Shown one piece after another: positions 3,794 to 30,546 of a DNA stretch of 64,000 nt. The position numbers were made by a program, and so were the translations under genes. Source of the DNA: a virus; IMG/VR virus record IMGVR_UViG_3300025759_000082, positions 1-64,000 of that record; one strand, 5' to 3'. Numbering within the stretch: position 1 is the stretch's first letter; each line of letters starts with the position of its first letter. The notes beneath the pieces are model-generated. The model worked only from the letters and a program-made list of their open reading frames with translations, did not search any database and was not told the origin of the DNA.

Positions 3794-6399
3794 TGGGAAC
3801 GTTTACTGAGACCGCGGTTCTTCAGGTATCGGACCAAAGCTCGGGCCAGTTGAAGGCTATCGAGTCGGCTCTCCGTAAACTTAACGCTGAGTCGGCGAAA
3901 GCCAAGTCGGCGTTCTCGGCTATCAAGCCACCGAAGATCGATCCAGGTCTGGCGAAGACCTTGACGACCATTGCGACCGCGATGACCAAGCTGAAAGAAG
4001 CTCAGAAGGGCATGCGGTCGCAAAACATTAACATCTCGGTCAAGGTCCAGGGTACCGCCAAGCTGGAAGCCCTGAATGCAGCTCTCACGAAATACAATAC
4101 GCTTTCCAAGAAAGCTATCCCTCTGAACCTCACGAATAGGGTTCAGAGCGTACCAGCTGCTGTCCAGAGAGTCAACGCCGGTCTTCCGGCGGGAGGTGCT
4201 AGTGGAGGCGGATCAGGAACGGGCGGTGGTGGAGCTACTGCTGCTGTTGGTGGCGGTGGTTCTGGTCGTAGCACTACTAGCAGACCTAACGCTGTAGCCA
4301 GAGGCCTCGGTCACGTCGGTCGTGGCGTTGCCTACACTGCTGGATACGGTTTGGCCTTCCGCGCATATGAGTCCTTCGTCGAAGGCATGTATGGCGTCGA
4401 CGTGAGTAAGACACAGGCTCGCCTTCTCAATATGAAGGAGCGCGAAGACCTTGAGAATTTCGTTCTCGAGCAGGCGAAACTGTTCCCGGAATTGACCGAA
4501 GCGAACATTCGTCAGATGACGTTCGAAAATGCAGCGCTTCTTGGTGATCCGCTTCAGGCTAAGCAGATCATGCCTGCTATCTTCGAGCAGGTTCGTCTGG
4601 CAATGCTTCGTAACCTTACTCGTGAACAGGCTGTTGAGGAAGGCTTTACTCTTTCTCGTATGGCCAACGTATTGTCCGCATTTTCGGATCAGCTCGGCAA
4701 TCTCGATGTTCAGGCACTGAGAGCAACGTTCGATACTGCTCAGCGTGCTCAGATCGTTTCAGGACGCGACCTGGACGAGAAAGCTATGCTGCAGACGGCA
4801 AAGAACCTCCGTGCTTCTGGTCAGGCCCTGACCCCGGCCGCGCTGCTCAAGACGTTCTTGCTGACTGCAGATATGGGTGGCACCGCTGGCGTTGGTATCA
4901 ACCAGCTAATCAAGAACCTTTCAGGTCGTGCCTTCAAAGCTCAAATGCAGGAGCAGGCTCGTCTGGGTCTTGCTGTTCAGAACCCTGAGACTGGTCGGTT
5001 CACGTCGATCAATCCTCAGTTGCTACGCAATGATCCGTTTGAGTTCATTGCGAAGTATATTACCGGACCTGGAGGCGCATTCGATCAGCTTGGTATCGAC
5101 GCAACGAAAATGTCAGCTGATGAATTCAACGCTGCGGTGTCTGAATTCTCTGATACGATTCTGAGTCATCGTACTGCTGCCGACCTGATGACCAAAGCGA
5201 TCTTGCAGCAGCAGGAACTGATCAATCAGGCTCGGACGGCTGAAAACCTCGATCTGTCTCCTGAGAATGTACAGCGCCTCGCTGAGGATAGTACTTGGTT
5301 CCAGATGCAGGCCGCGGGAGCTCGTATTACGAATTCACTGGGTCTCATCGCTGACGGTCTGGAAGACATCATTATTCCGACCTTGGAAGGCATTGGTTCC
5401 GGTATTCAATGGTTTACGAACCAGCTTAAGAATGATCAAGGTGAGATCGGACTCGGAGCTTCGCTGGCGGCATCACTTGGTATTGGTGCCATGGTCACGG
5501 CCATTTTCAATCCGTCTGCTATCGCACTTACCGCTTCGGCATTCGCGCTTAACCGGTCGGCTACGGCTCTGACGGCGGCAGCTCGCGCTCAGGCAGGTGG
5601 CGCAGCACTCGATGGAGCTGGCGGTCCCAAGAAAACCGGCTTCTTCGGAAAGCTTATGAAGCTCGGTGCTGTTGCAGGTATCACCGCAGCTTCTATCGAG
5701 GGAATGCGCTATTCTGTAGAAGAATTGAGCAAAACCAATGCTGACGAAGGTCGGAGACTGGCTACTCCGCGTGATGCTGAACGTCATTCTATGGAGCTTC
5801 TGCGTCGCGATCCAGCGGGAGTTGAGGCGGCCATCGCGGACGGTGCGCGTCGCGGAACGGCGGAAGGCCAGGTCGAAGCTACAAGCGCTCCTGGGATTAT
5901 GAATTCTCCGTTTATGGAGGACGTTCGCGGCATCCTGTCGGGTATCAAGGACGCCATTGAGAAGCAACGTATCGAAGGTCAGCCTGAACCATATCAGGCA
6001 GTTCGTGATCGTACTCCAGGAACTGCTCGTCCTGGTGGCTTCATGAATTCGCCGTTCATGGATGATGTTCGGTCGTTCTTTGGCCTTGAAGTTGCTCCTG
6101 CTGTGGAGGCCATCGACAACTCGACCCAGCAGATTTTCCAGGGTGCTGGACTCGTTGATCAGGGTGCTGCGGCTGTCACTACTTCGGCAGGACAAGCAAC
6201 CCAGGCCGCTGGTCAAGTAACTCAGGCTGCTGGTCAGGCCACCGCCGCCGGCGGAACTATCTTGAGCGCCTTGAACGAAGGCGCCGCAAATGTGGCTGGT
6301 CAGATCAGAGCAGCATTGGCCGCAGGCGTAAGTGTAAACGTGAATACTCCTGCTCCCGCTCGTTCAGTCCCGACTGGCAATATGGGCGTAGCTCCGTAA
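3793..6399 (+). CDS. Tail tape measure protein
   Basis: 868 residues, the longest gene here, starting at a GTG fused to the preceding stop (TAGTG) behind GGAGG. Alpha-helical throughout, with a Gly/Ala/Ser-rich hinge near residues 130-165, hydrophobic segments near 560-590 and 620-640, and an Ala/Gln/Gly-rich tail. The motif MNSPFM(E/D)DVR occurs twice, near residues 703 and 751, an internal duplication. It has no cysteine at all, in contrast to the Cys-rich outer tail proteins. It sets tail length and is ejected into the host envelope. Confidence 0.9.
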   Translation: MGTFTETAVLQVSDQSSGQLKAIESALRKLNAESAKAKSAFSAIKPPKIDPGLAKTLTTIATAMTKLKEAQKGMRSQNINISVKVQGTAKLEALNAALTKYNTLSKKAIPLNLTNRVQSVPAAVQRVNAGLPAGGASGGGSGTGGGGATAAVGGGGSGRSTTSRPNAVARGLGHVGRGVAYTAGYGLAFRAYESFVEGMYGVDVSKTQARLLNMKEREDLENFVLEQAKLFPELTEANIRQMTFENAALLGDPLQAKQIMPAIFEQVRLAMLRNLTREQAVEEGFTLSRMANVLSAFSDQLGNLDVQALRATFDTAQRAQIVSGRDLDEKAMLQTAKNLRASGQALTPAALLKTFLLTADMGGTAGVGINQLIKNLSGRAFKAQMQEQARLGLAVQNPETGRFTSINPQLLRNDPFEFIAKYITGPGGAFDQLGIDATKMSADEFNAAVSEFSDTILSHRTAADLMTKAILQQQELINQARTAENLDLSPENVQRLAEDSTWFQMQAAGARITNSLGLIADGLEDIIIPTLEGIGSGIQWFTNQLKNDQGEIGLGASLAASLGIGAMVTAIFNPSAIALTASAFALNRSATALTAAARAQAGGAALDGAGGPKKTGFFGKLMKLGAVAGITAASIEGMRYSVEELSKTNADEGRRLATPRDAERHSMELLRRDPAGVEAAIADGARRGTAEGQVEATSAPGIMNSPFMEDVRGILSGIKDAIEKQRIEGQPEPYQAVRDRTPGTARPGGFMNSPFMDDVRSFFGLEVAPAVEAIDNSTQQIFQGAGLVDQGAAAVTTSAGQATQAAGQVTQAAGQATAAGGTILSALNEGAANVAGQIRAALAAGVSVNVNTPAPARSVPTGNMGVAP

Positions 6400-6407
6400 G
6401 GTAAGAC

Positions 6408-7589
6408 ATGGCACAGGGTTGCTATACTCCGCTGTACCTTCCGGCTTCCTACAAGGGAGTCCCGTTCCAGGCGATGGAAGTCACCTCGGAACATGGTCGG
6501 CGTGGTGCTGAAGGTGAGTTTCCTTTTGGCGAGGATACGGCATATGCCGACCTCGGACGGCGCATTCGTGTCTACACTCTCGAAGGACGTATTGTCCATA
6601 ACGCGCATCTGGTGAATGCTGCTGCACTCATCGCTGTTTGCGAAACGACCGGCCCCGGTATCCTGATCCATCCGACTCGCGGTCTGGTTCGGGCAGCTTG
6701 CCGGTCTTTGAAGGTGAAGGATGACCCACTAGAGGCTCAGGGTGTCACCTATGTGACCCTTGAAATGGTTGAGGCAGAAGACTGGACTCACGGGTTCAAC
6801 TTCGTTGCTCAGATCATCGGCCTGTCTCTGCTGTCGATCACGTCGGCTTTGCAGGCATCCTTCACGACGAATTTCCGTCCTTCCGACGTTCCTGCTTTTG
6901 AGCAGCCTCCGGTAATTGAAACGGGACGTCGAGCTATTGAAATTATTCGCGATACGTTCGGCGATGTGACAAACGGATCGGAAGACCTGAAGGTCTCCCG
7001 CATCTATGATGATCTGGATACTTTCAGCCTCGACGACCAAAAACTGAAGACGCCGGCTTCCATGTTCAATGGCATGAAGCTGGGCCTTGCTGCGATCGAT
7101 AAGTATTCGGTTGGCGAAACCAAGTACGAAGCGATGCGCCGTATCGTCAATCAGTTTGCTGCTTCGAATGGTGGTACCCGTACGGCGGATATCTCGATCG
7201 ACTCCATTTACGCGGTCATGCGCGTTCTTGGTGCAGGCTACATGGCTCGCGCTGCTTTGGAAGAAACGCCGGATACGCTGGATGCCGCACTACGCCAGTA
7301 CGATCACGTTGTCGCCATCTTGGAAGGAGAAATCGATGTCGCTCGTGCGCATTGTGACAACCTTCTGTTCCTCGCTCTGAGAGAATTCAAAACGCAGGCT
7401 GAGGTGGCACTTCTCAATCGCGCCTATAACCTGCCGAGCTTGATTGTCTACAACTTCTCCGTGGCACAGCATTCGTTGGTGGCAGCTTACGAAATCTACG
7501 GAGATGCGAAGCGGGCTCGTGAACTCGAGGCTCGTAATCCTCACGCATTGGTCCACAACATGGGACCGCAGATCGTGGCAGCATCATGA
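6408..7589 (+). CDS. Mu gpN-like tail/baseplate protein (DNA circularisation N-terminal family)
   Basis: 393 residues. The N-terminal 120 residues match the DNA_circ_N pattern: 'PASYKGVPF', 'EHGRRGAEGEFPF', 'YADLGRRIRVYTLEG', 'GPGILIHPTRGLVRA' and a closing 'EDWTHG'. It occupies the Mu gpN position after the tape measure. In contractile tails this protein is thought to link the tape measure/tube to the baseplate hub; the circularisation name is historical. It overlaps the next gene by ATGA. Confidence 0.88.
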   Translation: MAQGCYTPLYLPASYKGVPFQAMEVTSEHGRRGAEGEFPFGEDTAYADLGRRIRVYTLEGRIVHNAHLVNAAALIAVCETTGPGILIHPTRGLVRAACRSLKVKDDPLEAQGVTYVTLEMVEAEDWTHGFNFVAQIIGLSLLSITSALQASFTTNFRPSDVPAFEQPPVIETGRRAIEIIRDTFGDVTNGSEDLKVSRIYDDLDTFSLDDQKLKTPASMFNGMKLGLAAIDKYSVGETKYEAMRRIVNQFAASNGGTRTADISIDSIYAVMRVLGAGYMARAALEETPDTLDAALRQYDHVVAILEGEIDVARAHCDNLLFLALREFKTQAEVALLNRAYNLPSLIVYNFSVAQHSLVAAYEIYGDAKRARELEARNPHALVHNMGPQIVAAS

Positions 7590-22375: not shown

Positions 22376-22786
22376 TTACTTCAACAAAGCCGTCAGCAGC
22401 TTCATCCGCATGTCAAGGTCCCCCGGCTTGCACAAGGGGGTTAGGTCGCCCAACTTGACCACTGTCCATTTCTGCTTCTTGGTCTTGGGAGCATTCACGA
22501 ACTCGGAGGCGTGATACAGAGAAAACACATCCTTGCGGTCATGAGCGACAGCCACGAACACGCGATAGAAGCCTGTCCGCAACATCTGAGCCATGAACGG
22601 GAGCTGGAAGAACTCGAAGAAAGCCTCTCCGCTATGTTCGACCTTCGCCTCGATCATGCCCATGATTTCGAGTCGATGATAGAGCAGATCAGGGAATCCG
22701 TTCCCAATGAGGTTTTCGATCTGCTTGAAGTGTACGTCGGGTTCCAGCACGCTCATGAAGTGCTTTACGAAGGTATCTTCCTTCAT
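22376..22786 (-). CDS. PD-(D/E)XK (VRR-NUC/HJR-like) nuclease
   Basis: 136 residues from the ATG overlapping the polymerase stop (ATGA). 'GNGFPDLLYHRLEIMGMIEAKVE' gives the G-x-P-D ... E-x-K core, followed by 'FQLPFMAQMLRTGFYRVFVAV', a VRR-NUC/archaeal-resolvase pattern. Probably a structure-specific nuclease acting on branched replication intermediates. C-terminus basic. Confidence 0.8.
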   Translation of the reverse strand: MKEDTFVKHFMSVLEPDVHFKQIENLIGNGFPDLLYHRLEIMGMIEAKVEHSGEAFFEFFQLPFMAQMLRTGFYRVFVAVAHDRKDVFSLYHASEFVNAPKTKKQKWTVVKLGDLTPLCKPGDLDMRMKLLTALLK

Positions 22787-24753
22787 GCTGCTACCCTTTC
22801 GAGTTCCACCACGTCGCCCCACGACGTACCGACGTCAGGCTTTGCTGAAAACGGGATTTCAAGCGGGCATATAGTTTCGAGGATTTTCTGCATTTGAAAA
22901 GCCGTTTCGTCGTCGTAGATGGTGGTGTTGATCTCATCGTAAACCTGAATGTGAGGAAGAATTCCCTGCCGATCCATCTCCACAATAGCCATCTTAATCT
23001 GATCAGCAGCAGAACCCTGGATTTTCGCGTTCATGGCTTTGTGGATTAATGCCCGCGTCACGTTGCCCCAACGATCTACGGCTGCCTCATAATCTTTCAT
23101 CGGGTAACCATCACGGTCTTCCCACCGCGCAGGTTCCCAGCTGTTGAACCGACGTTTCCTGCCTGAATACGTCCTGATGAACCCGTTGGCCTGCGCTAGC
23201 TCCATGCAGTAGTCAGCCAGCTTCTTGACGTATGGCACGCCTTGGTGATACGCTTTCAAGAGCTTGGTAGCTTCTTCAACATCCACACCGAGCTGCTGAG
23301 CTAGCTTCCACTTACCCATTCCGTATGCAGAACCGAGATTGATGCCCTTCGCCTTGCCGCGACCGATGTCCATGCCCACCATATCGCGAATCATGAACTG
23401 TACCATCTCGTGGTAATCGATGTCGGGATTCTCTAGATACTTGCGACGAGCTTCAGCTGCCCCCGGATAGTTCTTAATGAACGCGTAGTGGAGGGACCAT
23501 CTTGGTTCCTGCTGAGAGTAGTCAAGCTTGCACCAACGTCCGCCATAGTCTGCGACGAACAGACGCCGTATTGGCTTACCCCATTTAGGAGACCGCGTAG
23601 GAATCTGCGTGAGGTTAACCTTACTAGAAGCAATTCGTCCAGTCTTGGTTCCATTCTGCTTGTCCTCATCATCCGTACGAAGCTGGTGCCAATTCGGATG
23701 CAGGCGACCGTTGACGTTCTTCGCGAGGATAAGACCCTCGATGAAGTCACGTCGCATCTTGTTCATCTGCCGGAATTCGAGAACCGGACCGAGCTCCTGA
23801 TACTGCTCTCCCAGCTGGAGCAGGTATTCGTTTGTGAAGGAGTCGTTGCCCTTGGCAGTTTTATTGATGGCATGTTCGAGACCGAGAGCCTCGAAAACTT
23901 TACGCAAGCTAACAGGAGACCATGGATCGACGAAGAAGCCAAGCTGGTTCTTCATCATCCGAATGAGCTGGTTTTCCTGCTCTTGGATATCCCTCGAGAG
24001 TGCCTCCGCAGCATCGAGATCGATCCGAACTCCGCGCTTGCGCATCTTCCAGAGACACGGCTGCAGGTCTGACTCGAGCTTCATGACCTCAAGCAGCTTC
24101 TCTTTCTCGAGCCGAGCATGCTGCTGCTTCATGATCAGGATCGGATTGAGCGCGTCGTCCTCGGCGTATGGGCCGACGTACTTGCTGTGGAGCTTCCACA
24201 TTTCCGACTTGGGATCGATACCGGACGCGTCCGCTGCCTCACGAAGCAGCCTCTCCGTCTTGCCTTGACCGAGGTAGTCGCGAGATAGAACCTCGAGCGA
24301 ATACCCGTCAGCCTTCTCCTCGTCCAGGAGCGGCTCTGCATTCTGAATATCCCACAGCGGCCCAACAATAGGAATGCCAAGCGAGTCAAGTGCCTCGAGC
24401 TCGTACATCAGGTTGGCGCCGGCCTTCGTCTGGTGCGGACGGCTAAGCTGCACCTTGACGTAGTCTACGACCTTGTCTTTGTCCATGTTCCCGCCGTCAA
24501 GGTGACCGAACGGGAGATACATTTTCGGCCCATCTTCAACAGCGAGACTGATGCCTACAACTCGAGCATCGCCTCGAATGAAGCCTGGGCCTTCTTCATT
24601 AAGATACGGATCGCGTGACTCGACGTCGATACCGATCGCCTTGGCAGCGGACAGATCAGGAAGGGACTCGGGCGGCGTCCAATCAGATGCCGGAGCAAAC
24701 AGCCCGAGTTGGAGTTCGCTGCTGAGCTTCTTGGATTTACTTCTTTTCGCCAA
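22783..24753 (-). CDS. DNA polymerase, family A
   Basis: 656 residues if started at the TTG at 24753; no ATG lies near the conserved N-terminus. 3'-5' exonuclease: 'IGIDVESRD' (Exo I, D-x-E), 'GANLMYELEAL' (Exo II, with Glu in the usual Asp place) and 'YAEDDALN' (Exo III). Polymerase: motif A 'DYSQQEPR', motif B 'KGINLGSAYGMG', motif C 'VYDEIN' (Tyr where His is usual). Replicative polymerase. It overlaps the deaminase gene by 17 bases. Confidence 0.92.
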   Translation of the reverse strand: MAKRSKSKKLSSELQLGLFAPASDWTPPESLPDLSAAKAIGIDVESRDPYLNEEGPGFIRGDARVVGISLAVEDGPKMYLPFGHLDGGNMDKDKVVDYVKVQLSRPHQTKAGANLMYELEALDSLGIPIVGPLWDIQNAEPLLDEEKADGYSLEVLSRDYLGQGKTERLLREAADASGIDPKSEMWKLHSKYVGPYAEDDALNPILIMKQQHARLEKEKLLEVMKLESDLQPCLWKMRKRGVRIDLDAAEALSRDIQEQENQLIRMMKNQLGFFVDPWSPVSLRKVFEALGLEHAINKTAKGNDSFTNEYLLQLGEQYQELGPVLEFRQMNKMRRDFIEGLILAKNVNGRLHPNWHQLRTDDEDKQNGTKTGRIASSKVNLTQIPTRSPKWGKPIRRLFVADYGGRWCKLDYSQQEPRWSLHYAFIKNYPGAAEARRKYLENPDIDYHEMVQFMIRDMVGMDIGRGKAKGINLGSAYGMGKWKLAQQLGVDVEEATKLLKAYHQGVPYVKKLADYCMELAQANGFIRTYSGRKRRFNSWEPARWEDRDGYPMKDYEAAVDRWGNVTRALIHKAMNAKIQGSAADQIKMAIVEMDRQGILPHIQVYDEINTTIYDDETAFQMQKILETICPLEIPFSAKPDVGTSWGDVVELERVAA

Positions 24754-25174
24754 GATGAACCCACTCTCTGCCGGCGCGACGCCACAAGTTCTCGGAGTCG
24801 CTGTGCGGATATTCATGACGGAATACGATGCGTTTGCACGACGTATTCAGGATGAGCTTCGTGCAGTGGATGCACGGAGAAGCGGTACAGAACAGGGAGT
24901 GGATTTCTTCCACATCCTTGCACTGAAGAAGAGCATTGGCCTCAGCATGAACTGCTTCGCACTTCTCCAATCCCTGCCCGGACGGATAGTGCGCACCGGC
25001 ACACGGCTCGTGAGTACAGTGAGCGAACCCACGCGGCGTGCCGTTGTAGCCCGTCGCGATGACGTGGCGATGGTGGTTGATGATAACGCAACCGACTTGG
25101 CGACGCGGGCAGGTGCCACGCGTCGCCGTCAGTTCCGCCATCTGAAGAAAGAATTCGTCAGATGACGGGCGCAT
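24737..25174 (-). CDS. dCMP deaminase
   Basis: 145 residues starting at the ATG fused with the previous stop (TGATG). The Zn site is clear: 'CEAVHAEANALLQC' (H-A-E) and 'SPCIHCTKLIL' (P-C-x-x-C). An extra N-terminal Cys/His set ('GTCPRRQVGCVI', 'HCTHEPC') matches the T4-type second zinc. Converts dCMP to dUMP for thymidylate synthesis. Confidence 0.92.
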   Translation of the reverse strand: MRPSSDEFFLQMAELTATRGTCPRRQVGCVIINHHRHVIATGYNGTPRGFAHCTHEPCAGAHYPSGQGLEKCEAVHAEANALLQCKDVEEIHSLFCTASPCIHCTKLILNTSCKRIVFRHEYPHSDSENLWRRAGREWVHLGEKK

Positions 25175-25968
25175 CAGATCATTTCCTGCTTGTGCAGGTC
25201 GCCGGTGACGGCGTATTCCCACAGCGCCGAGACAATGTCCGAGCTGTGCTCGAACCGCTGAACCACCAGCTGGGGGCCGCGGTCCGAGGGAGAAAGCCGC
25301 CGGTACAGGACGTCCTTGACGTTCTCGTAGTTGCGCTCGTAGATATGCTGGGATGTCGCACTGAGGCTGAACGTCCCCGGCTCGATGTACTCGGAAGTAC
25401 GCATCCAGTACTCGACCGCGATCATCGCCGACAGCATTGAGAAGTTGAATACGTCGTAGGGCCACCCGAGCCAGGCGTCAGATGAACGCATCTTGTCGAG
25501 ACAGTGGAGCTTGCCTTCCCGGATCACCCACTGCACCGACACGGTACACGGCACGTCCTTCGTTATACGCGGATTGGGCCGCCAGATCGTCATCACCGCC
25601 TGCCGCGAGTCGGGGTCCTTGACCAGCGTGTCGACGACGTACGAGAGTTGATCCACGATCCGGGGGCCGTACGCGCCGAAGAAGCGGATACCATCGTCGG
25701 AGAATTCCTTGATCCGCTTGGCGTAGGGAAGGATGGTCTCGACCCTGTTGTCGCCCGACAGAATCCAAGCCGCTTCGGCCGCCATGAACTTGTAGCCCAG
25801 GTTACGGGCCGGATGTGTGATCACCGGATACGTCATATCGAAACGCATCGTGTAATCCAGAATTTCCTTCGTCTCCATGCCCCGAGGACTGCTGATTTCG
25901 CCGTCCTGGTAAACGTCCTGAAGAAGGCGTTCCCAGGCATTGTTGGCGCAGTCAAAGAATTGGGTCAA
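25174..25968 (-). CDS. Thymidylate-synthase-fold dCMP-type (hydroxy)methyltransferase
   Basis: 264 residues from a TTG (25968) that overlaps the kinase stop and has GGAGG five bases upstream; a GTG at 25980 is the alternative. Catalytic Cys in 'DVPCTVSVQW', phosphate-binding 'KMRSSDAWLGWPYD', then 'SQHIYERN' (His/Tyr of TS). The spacing from Cys to Arg is 20, as in E. coli TS. The residue equivalent to Asn177, which reads uracil, is Asp ('WPYD'). Asp there is the known switch to dCMP in T4 dCMP hydroxymethylase, so the substrate is probably dCMP and the phage DNA may contain modified cytosine. Confidence 0.82.
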   Translation of the reverse strand: MTQFFDCANNAWERLLQDVYQDGEISSPRGMETKEILDYTMRFDMTYPVITHPARNLGYKFMAAEAAWILSGDNRVETILPYAKRIKEFSDDGIRFFGAYGPRIVDQLSYVVDTLVKDPDSRQAVMTIWRPNPRITKDVPCTVSVQWVIREGKLHCLDKMRSSDAWLGWPYDVFNFSMLSAMIAVEYWMRTSEYIEPGTFSLSATSQHIYERNYENVKDVLYRRLSPSDRGPQLVVQRFEHSSDIVSALWEYAVTGDLHKQEMI

Positions 25969-26771
25969 AAGAACCTCCACTCGATTTCGGGCCGCATATG
26001 GCGGTATTCCCGGAATTCCGGGCTTGCCACATGATGGATATTCACAGCCACATAGTTGGGTCTGCTGAGGTGCGCGTACTCCGCGAACTTCAACGATTTG
26101 GGAGTCGCCTCGGACAGCACAGGGCGCTTCGACAACGGCTCGTCGATGATGAAACCCTCATCCGGGTTCCACCTGTTTCCTACGAGGCAGCTCGGATATT
26201 CCTGCTTCGAGCACACATTGAGTCGAAGGGCGACCGAATTGATCATCCATTCGATCCACCGAGTCATGCTGATCGCCCCGTCCACGACGCTGAATACGTC
26301 ATAGCGGAAGTGGAGACGGGAGCCCCTGTCCATCTTCCGCATCAGTACGTCGAAGGCATCGTACACACGAAGCATTCCTTCGCTGTACATTTCTTCGCGT
26401 TTATCCTTGAGCTGGGCGAAGTTTGTACCCACACGCTCGCGGTCATGTGGCATACACCAGATGTACACGATATCATGGGTCAGTGCCATCGTATCCAGAA
26501 GGACCGAAATGTACGGGCACTTCGTTCCGCCGCGATACGCCTTAGCATACGCGACTTCGCTCGGCCACCAGCGATCCAGGATCACGTGCTGGTTCTTGGC
26601 CTTCTTGAGGCACCACTCGATGGCGGCTCGGTGGTACCCGAACATATTGTCCGGGTACCGATAGGTCAGATGCAGATACCGACCATTGAGCCGTTCGACG
26701 AGCGCCTTGCCGAGTGTCGTCTTGCCGACCCCATCGGGGCCTTCCAAGACGAAGATCGTATGGCGTGTCAT
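25965..26771 (-). CDS. Thymidylate-kinase-like nucleotide kinase with C-terminal extension
   Basis: 268 residues. Walker A 'EGPDGVGKTTLGKAL' near residue 10, 'ILDRWWPSEVAYAKAYRG' carries the D-R-x-x-x-S/Y motif of TMP kinases, and a lid-like segment follows ('MPHDRERVGTNFAQLKDKREEMY'). Residues ~185-268 are an extra domain I do not recognise ('CLVGNRWNPDEGFIIDEPL'). Beside a dCMP-type TS homologue it may phosphorylate the modified dCMP. Confidence 0.8.
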   Translation of the reverse strand: MTRHTIFVLEGPDGVGKTTLGKALVERLNGRYLHLTYRYPDNMFGYHRAAIEWCLKKAKNQHVILDRWWPSEVAYAKAYRGGTKCPYISVLLDTMALTHDIVYIWCMPHDRERVGTNFAQLKDKREEMYSEGMLRVYDAFDVLMRKMDRGSRLHFRYDVFSVVDGAISMTRWIEWMINSVALRLNVCSKQEYPSCLVGNRWNPDEGFIIDEPLSKRPVLSEATPKSLKFAEYAHLSRPNYVAVNIHHVASPEFREYRHMRPEIEWRFF

Positions 26772-26779
26772 GACAGCTC

Positions 26780-27385
26780 CTAGTTTGGAAAGACGAGGTC
26801 GGTCAGCTTCGCTGGCACCCAGCCTTCCGGCTTCACGATGTCGAATTGGGTGTCCCTGTGGCCACGCGTGTCGTCACGCTCGGCGCGCACCTTCTTCATG
26901 TTGGCGGAGTGGACGCGCAACCAGCCGAGGTTGAACGCGAACCCGTGCGCTGCCGCCGTTTCCAGCACGCACTGACCGAGCTCCTGGAGCGCGTCGAGCT
27001 TGCCGTCGAGATACCCAGCATCCGTCGCCGACTCGTACTTCTTGATGTACAGAGCCATCTGGCGCATGTGATACTGGGCCAGCGTGTCGTCCAGCTCGCG
27101 AGGAGGACCGAAGTATCCCGTCACGATGCTGCGCTCTCTATACGCCTGACCATGAAGGTAGAGCGTGCCGACCGTTACGTACATGAGGTCGATCAGGCCG
27201 TCGAACTGCTTCTCGAGGTCGCGCTTGGAATATGCTTCGACGTACTCGTCGAATTCCTCGTTCAGGAACTTGATGCGGAAGTCCCTGAGTTCGGCGTCGA
27301 GATGGCGTTCGACCTCGCCGCTGTAGCCGATGCCGAACTTCTCGTGGAACGCGGCGATGCAATTATGGAAGTAGTATTCCATCAT
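26780..27385 (-). CDS. MazG/PRA-PH-like nucleotide pyrophosphohydrolase
   Basis: 201 residues; ATG-ATG start, either usable. All-alpha NTP-PPase pattern: 'FLNEEFDEYVEAY' (E-E-x-x-E), then 'FDGLIDLMYVTVGTLYLHG' (D-x-x-D), and 'RVHSANMKKV' near the end, typical of phage PRA-PH-like proteins. In T4 a dCTPase removes unmodified dCTP; this enzyme could play that part here (inference). Confidence 0.82.
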   Translation of the reverse strand: MMEYYFHNCIAAFHEKFGIGYSGEVERHLDAELRDFRIKFLNEEFDEYVEAYSKRDLEKQFDGLIDLMYVTVGTLYLHGQAYRERSIVTGYFGPPRELDDTLAQYHMRQMALYIKKYESATDAGYLDGKLDALQELGQCVLETAAAHGFAFNLGWLRVHSANMKKVRAERDDTRGHRDTQFDIVKPEGWVPAKLTDLVFPN

Positions 27386-27386
27386 C

Positions 27387-27500
27387 CTACCTGTATTGGA
27401 AAGGTATCAGCAGCTGCCTATATGTATAACGGCCGATACCGGTTGTGAACCACGAAGAGGACAGCATGGAGCTGTTCCTCAACGCTGCGATCTTCGCCAT
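27387..27500 (-). CDS. Possible 37-residue coupled peptide
   Basis: ATG overlaps the methyltransferase stop (TGATG) and the frame runs to a TAG just before the next gene. No motif or membrane segment. It fills an otherwise empty 114-base gap in a tightly packed operon, the main argument for it. Confidence 0.3.
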   Translation of the reverse strand: MAKIAALRNSSMLSSSWFTTGIGRYTYRQLLIPFQYR

Positions 27501-28486
27501 CAGACGACGCCGGTGGCCGGATTGTAGGCGTCAGCGAAGCCCTCGAACATGTGACGCCAGTTCTCGCTGGAAGACCACGGCGCGCCGTCGGTCTGCAGCA
27601 TCGGGTATTTCCGCTCGTACCCTTCCTTCGTGGGCCCGAGGGTCCACATGCAGTTCCTCGCGTCGGCCGGATACAGCGGAGCGAAAATCGTCGCGAGGTA
27701 GTTGGAGTCGTAGACGTCGGCGAGGGCCTGGTAGACCTTGTCGGCGCCCGGGAAATCGGCGTACAGCTTGTGCACGTAGTCACGCTGCGAAGCGAACGTG
27801 CCGATCTCGCGCTTGATCGTGAGACCGCATTCCTCGATCAGCCAGCCCAGGGCGTTGTGATCCATCTCGTTCACGTGGTTGGCGGCGTGACCGACATTGG
27901 AGTCGTAGTTGGGCGTCGACATATAGAAGATGGGGTCCTGCCCCTCCGCCGCCGCCAGGTTCATGATGGTACGAACCTTGGTAAGAACGGCACGCACGTG
28001 CGCCGGCTCGATGTGCTCGAGCATCTCAAAGCAGGTGATGACGTTGGGCAGATAGAAGAAGTCTTCGTTGGGCTTGTTGCCATCGGCGTTCTCGCCGACG
28101 ATGTTGATGCCCATGCGACCGTCGGCCGTTTCCTCGATCGTGACCTGGTTCGACGCAAAGTCGACGCGACCGAACACATCCACAGGAAACTTACCAGTGT
28201 GAAATGGAGTGATGTCCAGCTTAGCACCGTGGTTCCAGTCCATGCCGATGTAGTGTTCGACGATGTAGCGGGACGAGTAGAGAGTTTTGGCGAGCGGGAC
28301 GTCGACGCCGCAGCCGATATCCAGGATGCGCGAAGTCTTGTAGACCTGCTTGCGCGCCATCTCCTTCATGACGTACGTCCAGCGCAGACAGTGTGCGACG
28401 TAGTCACGGTGAATGAAGCCCCGAGCGAGGGCGGTGTCTACCGACAAGTGGGTATTGTCGATGCTCTTTCCACGAGCGTTTGCCAA
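27500..28486 (-). CDS. Class I SAM-dependent methyltransferase
   Basis: 328 residues, TTG start behind CCAAGGAGAA. Motif I 'ILDIGCGVDVPLA' near residue 53, acidic loop 'YIGMDWN', and 'CFEMLEHIEP' (post-motif of the Methyltransf_23/11 group). 'FYMSTPNYD' is motif-IV-like. The substrate is unknown. First gene of the nucleotide/polymerase operon, so a DNA-base or nucleotide modification role is a fair guess. Confidence 0.8.
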   Translation of the reverse strand: MANARGKSIDNTHLSVDTALARGFIHRDYVAHCLRWTYVMKEMARKQVYKTSRILDIGCGVDVPLAKTLYSSRYIVEHYIGMDWNHGAKLDITPFHTGKFPVDVFGRVDFASNQVTIEETADGRMGINIVGENADGNKPNEDFFYLPNVITCFEMLEHIEPAHVRAVLTKVRTIMNLAAAEGQDPIFYMSTPNYDSNVGHAANHVNEMDHNALGWLIEECGLTIKREIGTFASQRDYVHKLYADFPGADKVYQALADVYDSNYLATIFAPLYPADARNCMWTLGPTKEGYERKYPMLQTDGAPWSSSENWRHMFEGFADAYNPATGVV

Positions 28487-29279: not shown

Positions 29280-29956
29280 GCGTAGTGCCTCGCCGTGTAC
29301 ATCACGTCCTCGTCGAAGCCGCCCGTCTTGAGTATCCAGGCGAGATACGACTTCGGAACCTCGTCCCAGCGCATGCCGGCGTGCTTCCCGAACATACACT
29401 TGCGGAGAAGGACCGGACGCTGGCTGATCTTGGCCATAGCTTCAAGCGGATTGTCGACGCTGGTCAAGCCCAGGATATGGAGGAACAACATCGCCGTCAC
29501 CTGCGCGTCATACAGAGCGCGATGAGCATGGAGTCCCGACTCGGGGGCCGGGAGTCCGAGTTCGTACCGAAGACACTGGTTGGAATGACAGTCGAAATCG
29601 GGGAACAGACGTGACGCCATCTTGTAGGTGCAAATCCAGGGAATGTCTCCCAGATCGATTACCTCGCTGTCGAACTTCGCATTGTGTGCGACAGCGTACT
29701 CGAACGAGTATTCGAGGATCGGCATCATGGCGTCGTCGTATGCGGGAGCGTCGGCCACCTCACGATCTGTGATATGGTGGATGGCCGACGCCCGAGCCGT
29801 AATGGACTTGGTGGGTTTGACCAAGGAGCTGTACTGATGCACGACTTCCTTGGTGTCGCAGTCCACGAAAACCGCCGCTACCTCGACGACTTCCTTCGGC
29901 TCGTTCTGATCTGGTGGGACAGTGGTCTCACTGTCGATGACCGCTACCACCGTCAT
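29276..29956 (-). CDS. DnaQ/ExoX-like 3'-5' exonuclease
   Basis: 226 residues. DEDDh signature: 'VAVIDSETT' (D-x-E), 'AVAHNAKFDSEVI' (N-x-x-F-D), 'HAHRALYDAQVTAML' (H-x-x-x-x-D). The C-terminal 55 residues ('CMFGKHAGMRWDEVPKSYLAWIL') are the DUF3820-type module often fused to ExoX. DNA repair or proofreading. The start overlaps the previous stop (TAATG). Confidence 0.9.
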   Translation of the reverse strand: MTVVAVIDSETTVPPDQNEPKEVVEVAAVFVDCDTKEVVHQYSSLVKPTKSITARASAIHHITDREVADAPAYDDAMMPILEYSFEYAVAHNAKFDSEVIDLGDIPWICTYKMASRLFPDFDCHSNQCLRYELGLPAPESGLHAHRALYDAQVTAMLFLHILGLTSVDNPLEAMAKISQRPVLLRKCMFGKHAGMRWDEVPKSYLAWILKTGGFDEDVMYTARHYA

Positions 29957-30546
29957 TAGCGGGCACCCATGTGGTCGACGAACGCCATGCGGTCGATCAT
30001 GAAGTCCCGCACCACGTTTTTCTCGATGTCGAGACCCCGGATGAACCACTCAGCATGACGGTACTTCGGGTACCATTCGCTGTTGCCGTACCAGGGATAG
30101 AGCGGGACGATCCTGCGCTTCCCGCGCTTGTTTTCGTGGTTGACGTACTCGAACTCGATGACGCCGATCTTGCCGTCTTCTTCCGGCGCTTCGTAGTTGG
30201 GAAGCTTGAGCGCCGATTTCGCGGCAATCCGGTTCCGCACTTCCATCGGCTGGACGCGGTTCCATTCGTTCGCGTAAGCGGTATCGACATCGACGTCGCC
30301 CGACTCGCACAGAGCGAGGAACGTGATCAACACACCACCGACTTCCTGATCGAGCTCGCCGACCGGCTTCGTCATCTTGTCATGGATGATCGCGACCATC
30401 TCGGCCACGGTCATGCCGCGAACCTGCATGAGCTCGACGACTTCCTCGAAGAAACGCGCATTGCGTTCCTGCTTGTCGGCGAGTACCTCGTAGCCGAACG
30501 TGCCGGCGACCCAGTCTCCGATCTTCTCCTGGAGTTGCTTGAACAT
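29956..30546 (-). CDS. MazG-like protein with C-terminal beta domain
   Basis: 196 residues. Residues 15-90 have an NTP-PPase look ('NARFFEEVVELMQVRGMTV', 'ELDQEVGGVLITFLALC'). The C-terminal part ('GVIEFEYVNHENKRGKRRIV', 'WYPKYRHAEWFIRGLD') resembles a WYL-like or kinked beta fold; its role is unknown. Second MazG-like gene of the phage, in another operon. Confidence 0.65.
   Translation of the reverse strand: MFKQLQEKIGDWVAGTFGYEVLADKQERNARFFEEVVELMQVRGMTVAEMVAIIHDKMTKPVGELDQEVGGVLITFLALCESGDVDVDTAYANEWNRVQPMEVRNRIAAKSALKLPNYEAPEEDGKIGVIEFEYVNHENKRGKRRIVPLYPWYGNSEWYPKYRHAEWFIRGLDIEKNVVRDFMIDRMAFVDHMGAR

Follow-up and report, generated by a model that had tools for sequence, protein, structure and literature searches.

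The window analysed here, that is the whole stretch of DNA of 64,000 nucleotides, covers 64,000 of the 67,412 bases of the virus record IMGVR_UViG_3300025759_000082 from IMG/VR. Genes encoding tail sheath, baseplate, portal and terminase proteins identify the virus as a myovirus. On the minus strand lies a gene encoding a homologue of thymidylate synthase (TS), a predicted deoxycytidylate (dCMP) 5-hydroxymethylase, in a cluster whose order of transcription is methyltransferase (MTase), MazG/PRA-PH, P-loop kinase, TS homologue, dCMP deaminase and family A DNA polymerase (Table 1). The TS homologue probably starts with the TTG at 25968, just downstream of a GGAGG; the GTG at 25980 is a possible alternative. 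Its start overlaps the stop codon of the kinase gene, which lies upstream of TS in most loci compared, and the ATG of the deaminase gene overlaps its stop codon (TGATG). An earlier interpretation of this DNA (the sequence-only reading) had recognised the TS gene and its kinase, MazG-like and methyltransferase neighbours; all were found, the TS homologue on the minus strand and the methyltransferase as a member of Methyltransf_23, but the adjoining downstream deaminase had been left out. ThyX and dihydrofolate reductase (DHFR) were looked for in the virus record and neither was found. PADLOC gave only partial matches to the cassette, namely to the kinase and deaminase domains.

Table 1 Genes of the cassette and a neighbouring early gene in the window
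Feature	Position	Strand	Matches and remarks
Family A DNA polymerase, candidate incorporator of modified dCTP	22783..24816	-	PF00476 8.4e-53; role from position only
dCMP deaminase	24737..25174	-	PF00383 1.3e-19, phrog_174 1.3e-43; HAE and PCxxC zinc motifs
TS-superfamily protein, predicted dCMP 5-hydroxymethylase	25174..25968	-	PF00303 6.7e-30; 264 aa from TTG
P-loop (thymidylate-kinase-like) kinase, predicted modified-dCMP kinase	25965..26771	-	PF02223 3.2e-07, phrog_761 3.2e-14
MazG/PRA-PH-type pyrophosphohydrolase, predicted dCTPase (dCTP to dCMP)	26780..27385	-	PF01503 2.7e-09, phrog_671 2.6e-22
Class I S-adenosylmethionine (SAM) methyltransferase (MTase), predicted to cap the hydroxymethyl group of 5-hydroxymethyl-deoxycytidine (hmdC)	27500..28486	-	PF13489 (Methyltransf_23) 7.9e-08
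Conserved protein of the same early region, no function assigned	29956..30546	-	phrog_8593 1.1e-31, phrog_14118

The TS homologue was aligned with E. coli ThyA, T4 gp42, SPO1 gp29, MilA and Pamexvirus TS to analyse its active site; E. coli (Ec) numbering is used. E58, Y94, C146, R166, S167, D169, G173, H207 and Y209 are conserved, and Asn177, which selects dUMP in ThyA, is replaced by Asp, as the sequence-only reading had stated. That all other active-site residues are kept, as it had also stated, is wrong: Asp (KDVPC) replaces L143, located three residues before the catalytic Cys (C-3), and Thr, Ile, Phe and Gln stand in place of H147, W80, W83 and R127, respectively; the C-terminal tail which covers the folate in TS is missing. 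The canonical features Asn177, His147, Leu143 and the tail are lacking, and the protein scores below the NCBIfam equivalog cut-offs for canonical thymidylate synthase. Asp at position 177 selects cytosine in T4 gp42 and MilA (PMC5175136, PMC8670742), and MetaGPA independently links D177 to cytosine-modified virome contigs (PMC8670742). The C-3 Asp is common to three proven hydroxymethylases, T4 gp42, SPO1 gp29 and MilA, whereas TS have Leu and relatives of the 5-methylcytosine (5mC) phage XP12 (DLP4, PaMx28) have Asn at this position. In T4 this residue (Asp145) was proposed to activate the water that becomes the hydroxyl group, and the exchange D145N abolishes product formation (PMC6400193). 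Asp177, an Asp or Glu at C-3 and a missing C-terminal tail are the features by which we assign a protein to the dCMP hydroxymethylases of the TS superfamily, and all are present in the window protein, which makes it a predicted member. The changed active-site positions are the best evidence for its product and, together with the missing tail and the lack of DHFR, argue for hydroxymethylation rather than methylation.

The AlphaFold model of the TS homologue (pLDDT 95) matched the CMP hydroxymethylase MilA best among solved structures (Z 26.8, 246 residues aligned, 2.4 Å), with TS structures following at about Z 24–25. MilA (PDB 5jnh, 5b6d) is also the top solved match in sequence and has the C-3 Asp, T147 and D177 in common with the window protein, but it carries Ala at Ec167 and Lys at Ec126, which cause its ribose preference (PMC5175136), where the window protein carries Ser and Arg. 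Ser167 and Arg126 point to deoxyribose over ribose and, therefore, to dCMP and not CMP as substrate; a MilA-type CMP hydroxymethylase was rejected. Likewise, a dUMP hydroxymethylase like SPO1 gp29 was rejected since Asp is found in place of Asn177. A further structure, 9iqc, a TS-family protein with dCMP and FAD, aligned with Z 24.3 over 213 residues (2.0 Å), which would fit a flavin-dependent dCMP 5-hydroxylase leading to 5-hydroxycytosine derivatives. However, the 9iqc family, to which a relative in Kosakonia phage 305 belongs, has Glu at C-3, Asn169, Val173 and Phe209 where the window protein has Asp, Asp, Gly and Tyr, MilA scores higher, and the clade of the window TS pairs with a carbamoyltransferase which acts on hydroxymethylcytosine (see below), so that we consider a flavin-dependent hydroxylase very improbable. 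The gene of Kosakonia phage 305 itself (L012, 2998-3690), annotated as deoxycytidylate 5-hydroxymethyltransferase, is a very close relative of 9iqc, whose title names a monooxygenase dependent on riboflavin with dCMP and FAD, and is likely misannotated; it is located near a gene for D-arabinose-5-phosphate isomerase.

A dCMP methylase of the XP12 type, giving 5-methyl-dCMP (5mdCMP) and 5mC in DNA, would fit the finding that the single exchange N177D redirects a canonical TS to dCMP, from which it makes 5mdCMP, according to work cited in PMC8670742; phages of this type also combine TS, deaminase and MazG (PMC9206674). DLP4 and PaMx28 were used as proxies for XP12. The region of these phages and of AXL1 resembles the window in D177 and in the nearby deaminase and pyrophosphohydrolase, but the Pamexvirus-type TS differs by Asn at C-3, by Pro147 and by an extended C-terminus, and a DHFR is linked to it; none of these features is found in the window, and the Pamexvirus region has no such MTase. 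A DHFR close to TS, as in DLP4 and PaMx28, is expected because the methylase consumes tetrahydrofolate (THF). Methylation to 5mdCMP is, therefore, improbable for the window enzyme, and a dCMP hydroxymethylase remains the preferred assignment.

The distribution of the MTase revealed how tightly it is linked to TS homologues of this kind. When 50,697 phage records were searched by tblastn, the MTase was found in five of them, representing four phages, each with this TS cassette, and a scan of IMG/VR with the MTase alignment gave 298 loci, 80 of which were taken into the analysis; 84,980 bacterial and archaeal genomes contained three loci, all on metagenome-assembled contigs. Adequate flanks (at least 2.5 kb before and at least 4 kb after the MTase) were present in 57 of 83 MTase loci and, indeed, a TS homologue was found in all 57. 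D177 is present in 73 of 74 TS sequences from MTase loci, showing that it is neither chance nor a sequencing slip; of the 73, 71 have a C-3 Asp and 2 a C-3 Asn. The sole exception to D177 is a second, canonical N177 TS in L104, additional to the D177 TS of that locus. The MTase is also paired with TS of the T4 gp42 branch (L177, L137, L172) and with others (L145), always with D177. No DHFR was seen in 139 MTase loci or in 56 carbamoyltransferase loci. As a side observation, the MTase-linked D177 TS of L113 and L144 have the C-3 Asn seen in 5mC phages.

A means of calibration came from a phage-associated carbamoyltransferase, which acts on DNA containing 5-hydroxymethylcytosine (5hmC, hmC) and on 5hmdCTP, while 5mdCTP and 5hmdUTP are not substrates, as determined by liquid chromatography–mass spectrometry (PMC8670742). 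In L091, a locus from the TS clade of the window that lacks the MTase, the slot immediately upstream of MazG, otherwise that of the MTase, is occupied by a carbamoyltransferase gene whose product has 39% identity to the validated enzyme. A scan with this protein gave 58 loci, and C-3 Asp together with D177 was found in all 51 TS sequences counted in them. This pairing calibrates the signature of the window TS as that of a dCMP hydroxymethylase. The MTase was present in 96 of 178 distinct TS loci and the carbamoyltransferase in 45; no locus had both and 37 had neither. Since the loci were gathered by scans with the proteins themselves, the ratio of 96 to 45 is meaningless but the absence of joint occurrence is meaningful. 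The order X-MazG-kinase-TS-deaminase known from 5hmC carbamoyltransferase cassettes (MetaGPA, PMC8670742) is that of the window, and the TS signature is identical, but X is the carbamoyltransferase there (10 loci) and the MTase in the window (this order in 67 loci), never both. In the TS tree, the supported clade with the window has 65 rows, of which 50 are linked to the MTase and 4 to the carbamoyltransferase; the tree needs at least six changes between the two partners, some on weak branches. These data suggest that hmC is capped by the MTase in some phages and by the carbamoyltransferase in others. A carbamoyltransferase was looked for in the window without a match, its slot being taken by the MTase; Pfam searches with ten early window open reading frames lacking an assignment, a part of all frames, gave no match and, hence, no second capping candidate.

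Some of the TS loci differ in their gene content. In L089, which belongs to the TS clade of the window and lacks the MTase, the open reading frame upstream of the kinase (5859-7256, plus strand) weakly matches PF00145 (C5-cytosine DNA methylase, 8.8e-06) and is possibly a further type of partner. Many carbamoyltransferase loci (L198, L201, L203, L208, L211) encode two TS-like proteins each, one of which has M, L or I in place of the folate-activating Glu58 but keeps D177; this paralogue is possibly heteromeric or non-folate. In L019 (Lactobacillus phage ATCCB, 2989-6044), a D177 TS is followed by genes annotated as beta-glucosyltransferase and UDP-galactopyranose mutase, which suggests glycosylated hmC with an unusual sugar.

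AlphaFold confidently predicts a class I SAM fold for the MTase (pLDDT 91, pTM 0.90), and the model matches many structures with close scores, among them CmoM (Z 17.6), HEN1 (Z 15.8) and ChlM. A profile search of the PDB gave weak matches only, to the O-methyltransferases Hen1 and UbiG and to a protein lysine methyltransferase. A classical DNA C5- or N-methyltransferase was rejected since only generic SAM-fold families and no DNA-methylase family matched; strand 4 holds ExxEH and not the DNA methyltransferase motifs DPPY/NPPF or PC. In HEN1, a small-RNA 2'-O-methyltransferase, Mg2+ held by Glu796, Glu799, His800 and His860 positions the hydroxyl group for methylation (PMC10781085). The residues E154-x-x-E157-H158 and N203-H204-x-x-E207 of the MTase align to this site (E-x-x-E-H...(D/N)H-x-x-E) in C. 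thermocellum Hen1, and the tetrad E154, E157, H158 and H204 is invariant in 103 of 103 distinct MTase homologues. Since CmoM and ChlM outscore HEN1 by fold, the metal-site argument rests on the alignment and not on rank, and ExxEH alone is also frequent in UbiG-like enzymes. The identity to HEN1 is about 16% and no RNA-repair context was seen around the MTase; this genomic context argues for a substrate other than the 2'-OH of the RNA 3'-end ribose used by HEN1.

These features would fit a metal-assisted O-methyltransferase acting on the CH2OH group of hmdC. It is likely that the MTase acts on the hmdC product in some way. Whether hmdC is O-methylated, as nucleotide or in DNA, so that these phages contain 5-methoxymethyl-dC as an alternative to carbamoylation and glucosylation, is more tentative and we give it somewhat less than an even chance; alternatively, another position on hmdC such as N4 could be methylated. 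No report of methoxymethylcytosine as a DNA base was found in the open-access literature. The MTase could also be unrelated to the base and merely be carried in the operon, for example for RNA end or tRNA methylation, and the RNA enzymes CmoM and HEN1, the latter methylating RNA 3' ends, are indeed among its nearest solved folds. This is unlikely, however, because TS was linked in every adequately flanked locus, the TS partners come from several TS clades yet have essentially always D177, and the MTase shares its slot with the 5hmC carbamoyltransferase but never occurs with it and is nearly absent from cellular genomes.

Only few deposited phages have close TS homologues (43–51% identity in tblastn), namely AXL3, PW916, two Manatee Spring phages and two pelagiphages. 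The gene order of the window cassette recurs in the Stenotrophomonas phage AXL3, the Pseudoxanthomonas phage PW916 and ct3Et533; the kinase of PW916 is not annotated, yet was detected. AXL3 and PW916 share the cassette including the MTase but are siphophages of other hosts, their TS are 43–44% identical to that of the window, and the annotations differ, being dTMP synthesis or dUMP hydroxymethylase. The DNA of AXL3 resists 35 of 37 restriction enzymes and is cut by TasI and Tru1I only, both of which have AT-only sites (PMC7504290). The authors took the TS for a dTMP-forming enzyme (PMC7504290), i.e. an ordinary phage thymidylate synthase helped by the deaminase, and deaminase and kinase do form the classical dTMP set. 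The Asp switch in the AXL3 TS argues for dCMP, contrary to that assignment; D177 is found throughout, the DNA is restriction-resistant, and the separate canonical TS of L104 as well as the ThyX which AXL3 also carries (PMC7504290) indicate that dTMP is made otherwise. An ordinary thymidylate synthase is, thus, hardly credible for the window. Beside these phages, an AXL3-like cassette (L007) has a 133-aa protein without Pfam match in the kinase position (5576-5977, plus strand), and the pelagiphage-type loci L006, L013, L056 and L077 and their relatives have only the kinase and the D177 TS without adjoining MTase or carbamoyltransferase, perhaps reflecting plain hmC or a cap encoded elsewhere.

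In sum, the phage very probably makes a modified cytosine via hmdCMP, with the TS homologue predicted to be a dCMP 5-hydroxymethylase working like T4 gp42. Some observations weigh against this: the equivalent of T4 Ser94 (Ser/Thr two residues before Tyr94), which is part of the hydroxymethylation signature (PMC6400193), is Gly in the window protein, the identity to T4 gp42 is 26% over 115 residues only, and C versus G as the altered base of AXL3 was left unsettled (PMC7504290). SPO1 gp29, a known hydroxymethylase, also lacks this Ser (Ala), so that Ser94 does not define the wider class; because of the Gly, the window gene was not classed as an orthologue of T4 gp42. The proposal of the sequence-only reading, a dCMP enzyme with a kinase and a dCTP-removing pyrophosphohydrolase for cytosine-modified DNA, is supported by the signature, the pairing with the carbamoyltransferase, the synteny with AXL3 and the fold, and holds as a prediction.

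T4 has a comparable set, comprising the hydroxymethylase gp42, the kinase gp1, the dCTPase gp56, the deaminase Cd and glucosyltransferases as capping enzymes. The set of activities is the same and D177, the C-3 Asp and the lack of the TS tail are common to gp42 and the window protein, but the proteins differ in the position of Ser94 and in overall identity, and the predicted cap is a methyltransferase in the window. In the proposed pathway, the five-gene operon would replace cytosine in phage DNA. The MazG-like enzyme would convert dCTP to dCMP, and the TS homologue would transfer a hydroxymethyl group from methylene-THF onto C5 of dCMP via its catalytic Cys (Ec C146), using Asp177 for cytosine and the C-3 Asp (T4 Asp145) for water activation. 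The P-loop kinase and the host nucleoside diphosphate kinase would then give hmdCTP, to be incorporated by the phage PolA, while the deaminase would divert part of the dCMP to dUMP for dTMP. Finally, the MTase would cap the hydroxymethyl group, on the nucleotide or on DNA, a task that falls to carbamoyltransferases or glucosyltransferases in other phages. The signature, the conserved linkage and the carbamoyltransferase exclusivity were observed directly; from there we strongly infer the hmdC pathway, predict each catalytic step and put forward the final base as a hypothesis.

Phages with hmC and a capping enzyme are of a known kind, but the MTase as capping partner and its breadth appear to be new, and the greatest novelty lies in the methyltransferase, which the sequence-only reading had not assigned a separate role. 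It represents a large, overlooked phage family whose linkage to dCMP hydroxymethylases is as tight as that of the proven carbamoyltransferase, and it excludes the latter. Modified bases guard phage genomes against restriction and CRISPR and are also sources of enzymes. With the cultured phage AXL3, which has the same operon and an unexplained restriction resistance, the prediction is testable. If the MTase does cap hmC, a SAM-dependent route would be added to the known ways of capping, and probably a new natural base to those found in DNA.
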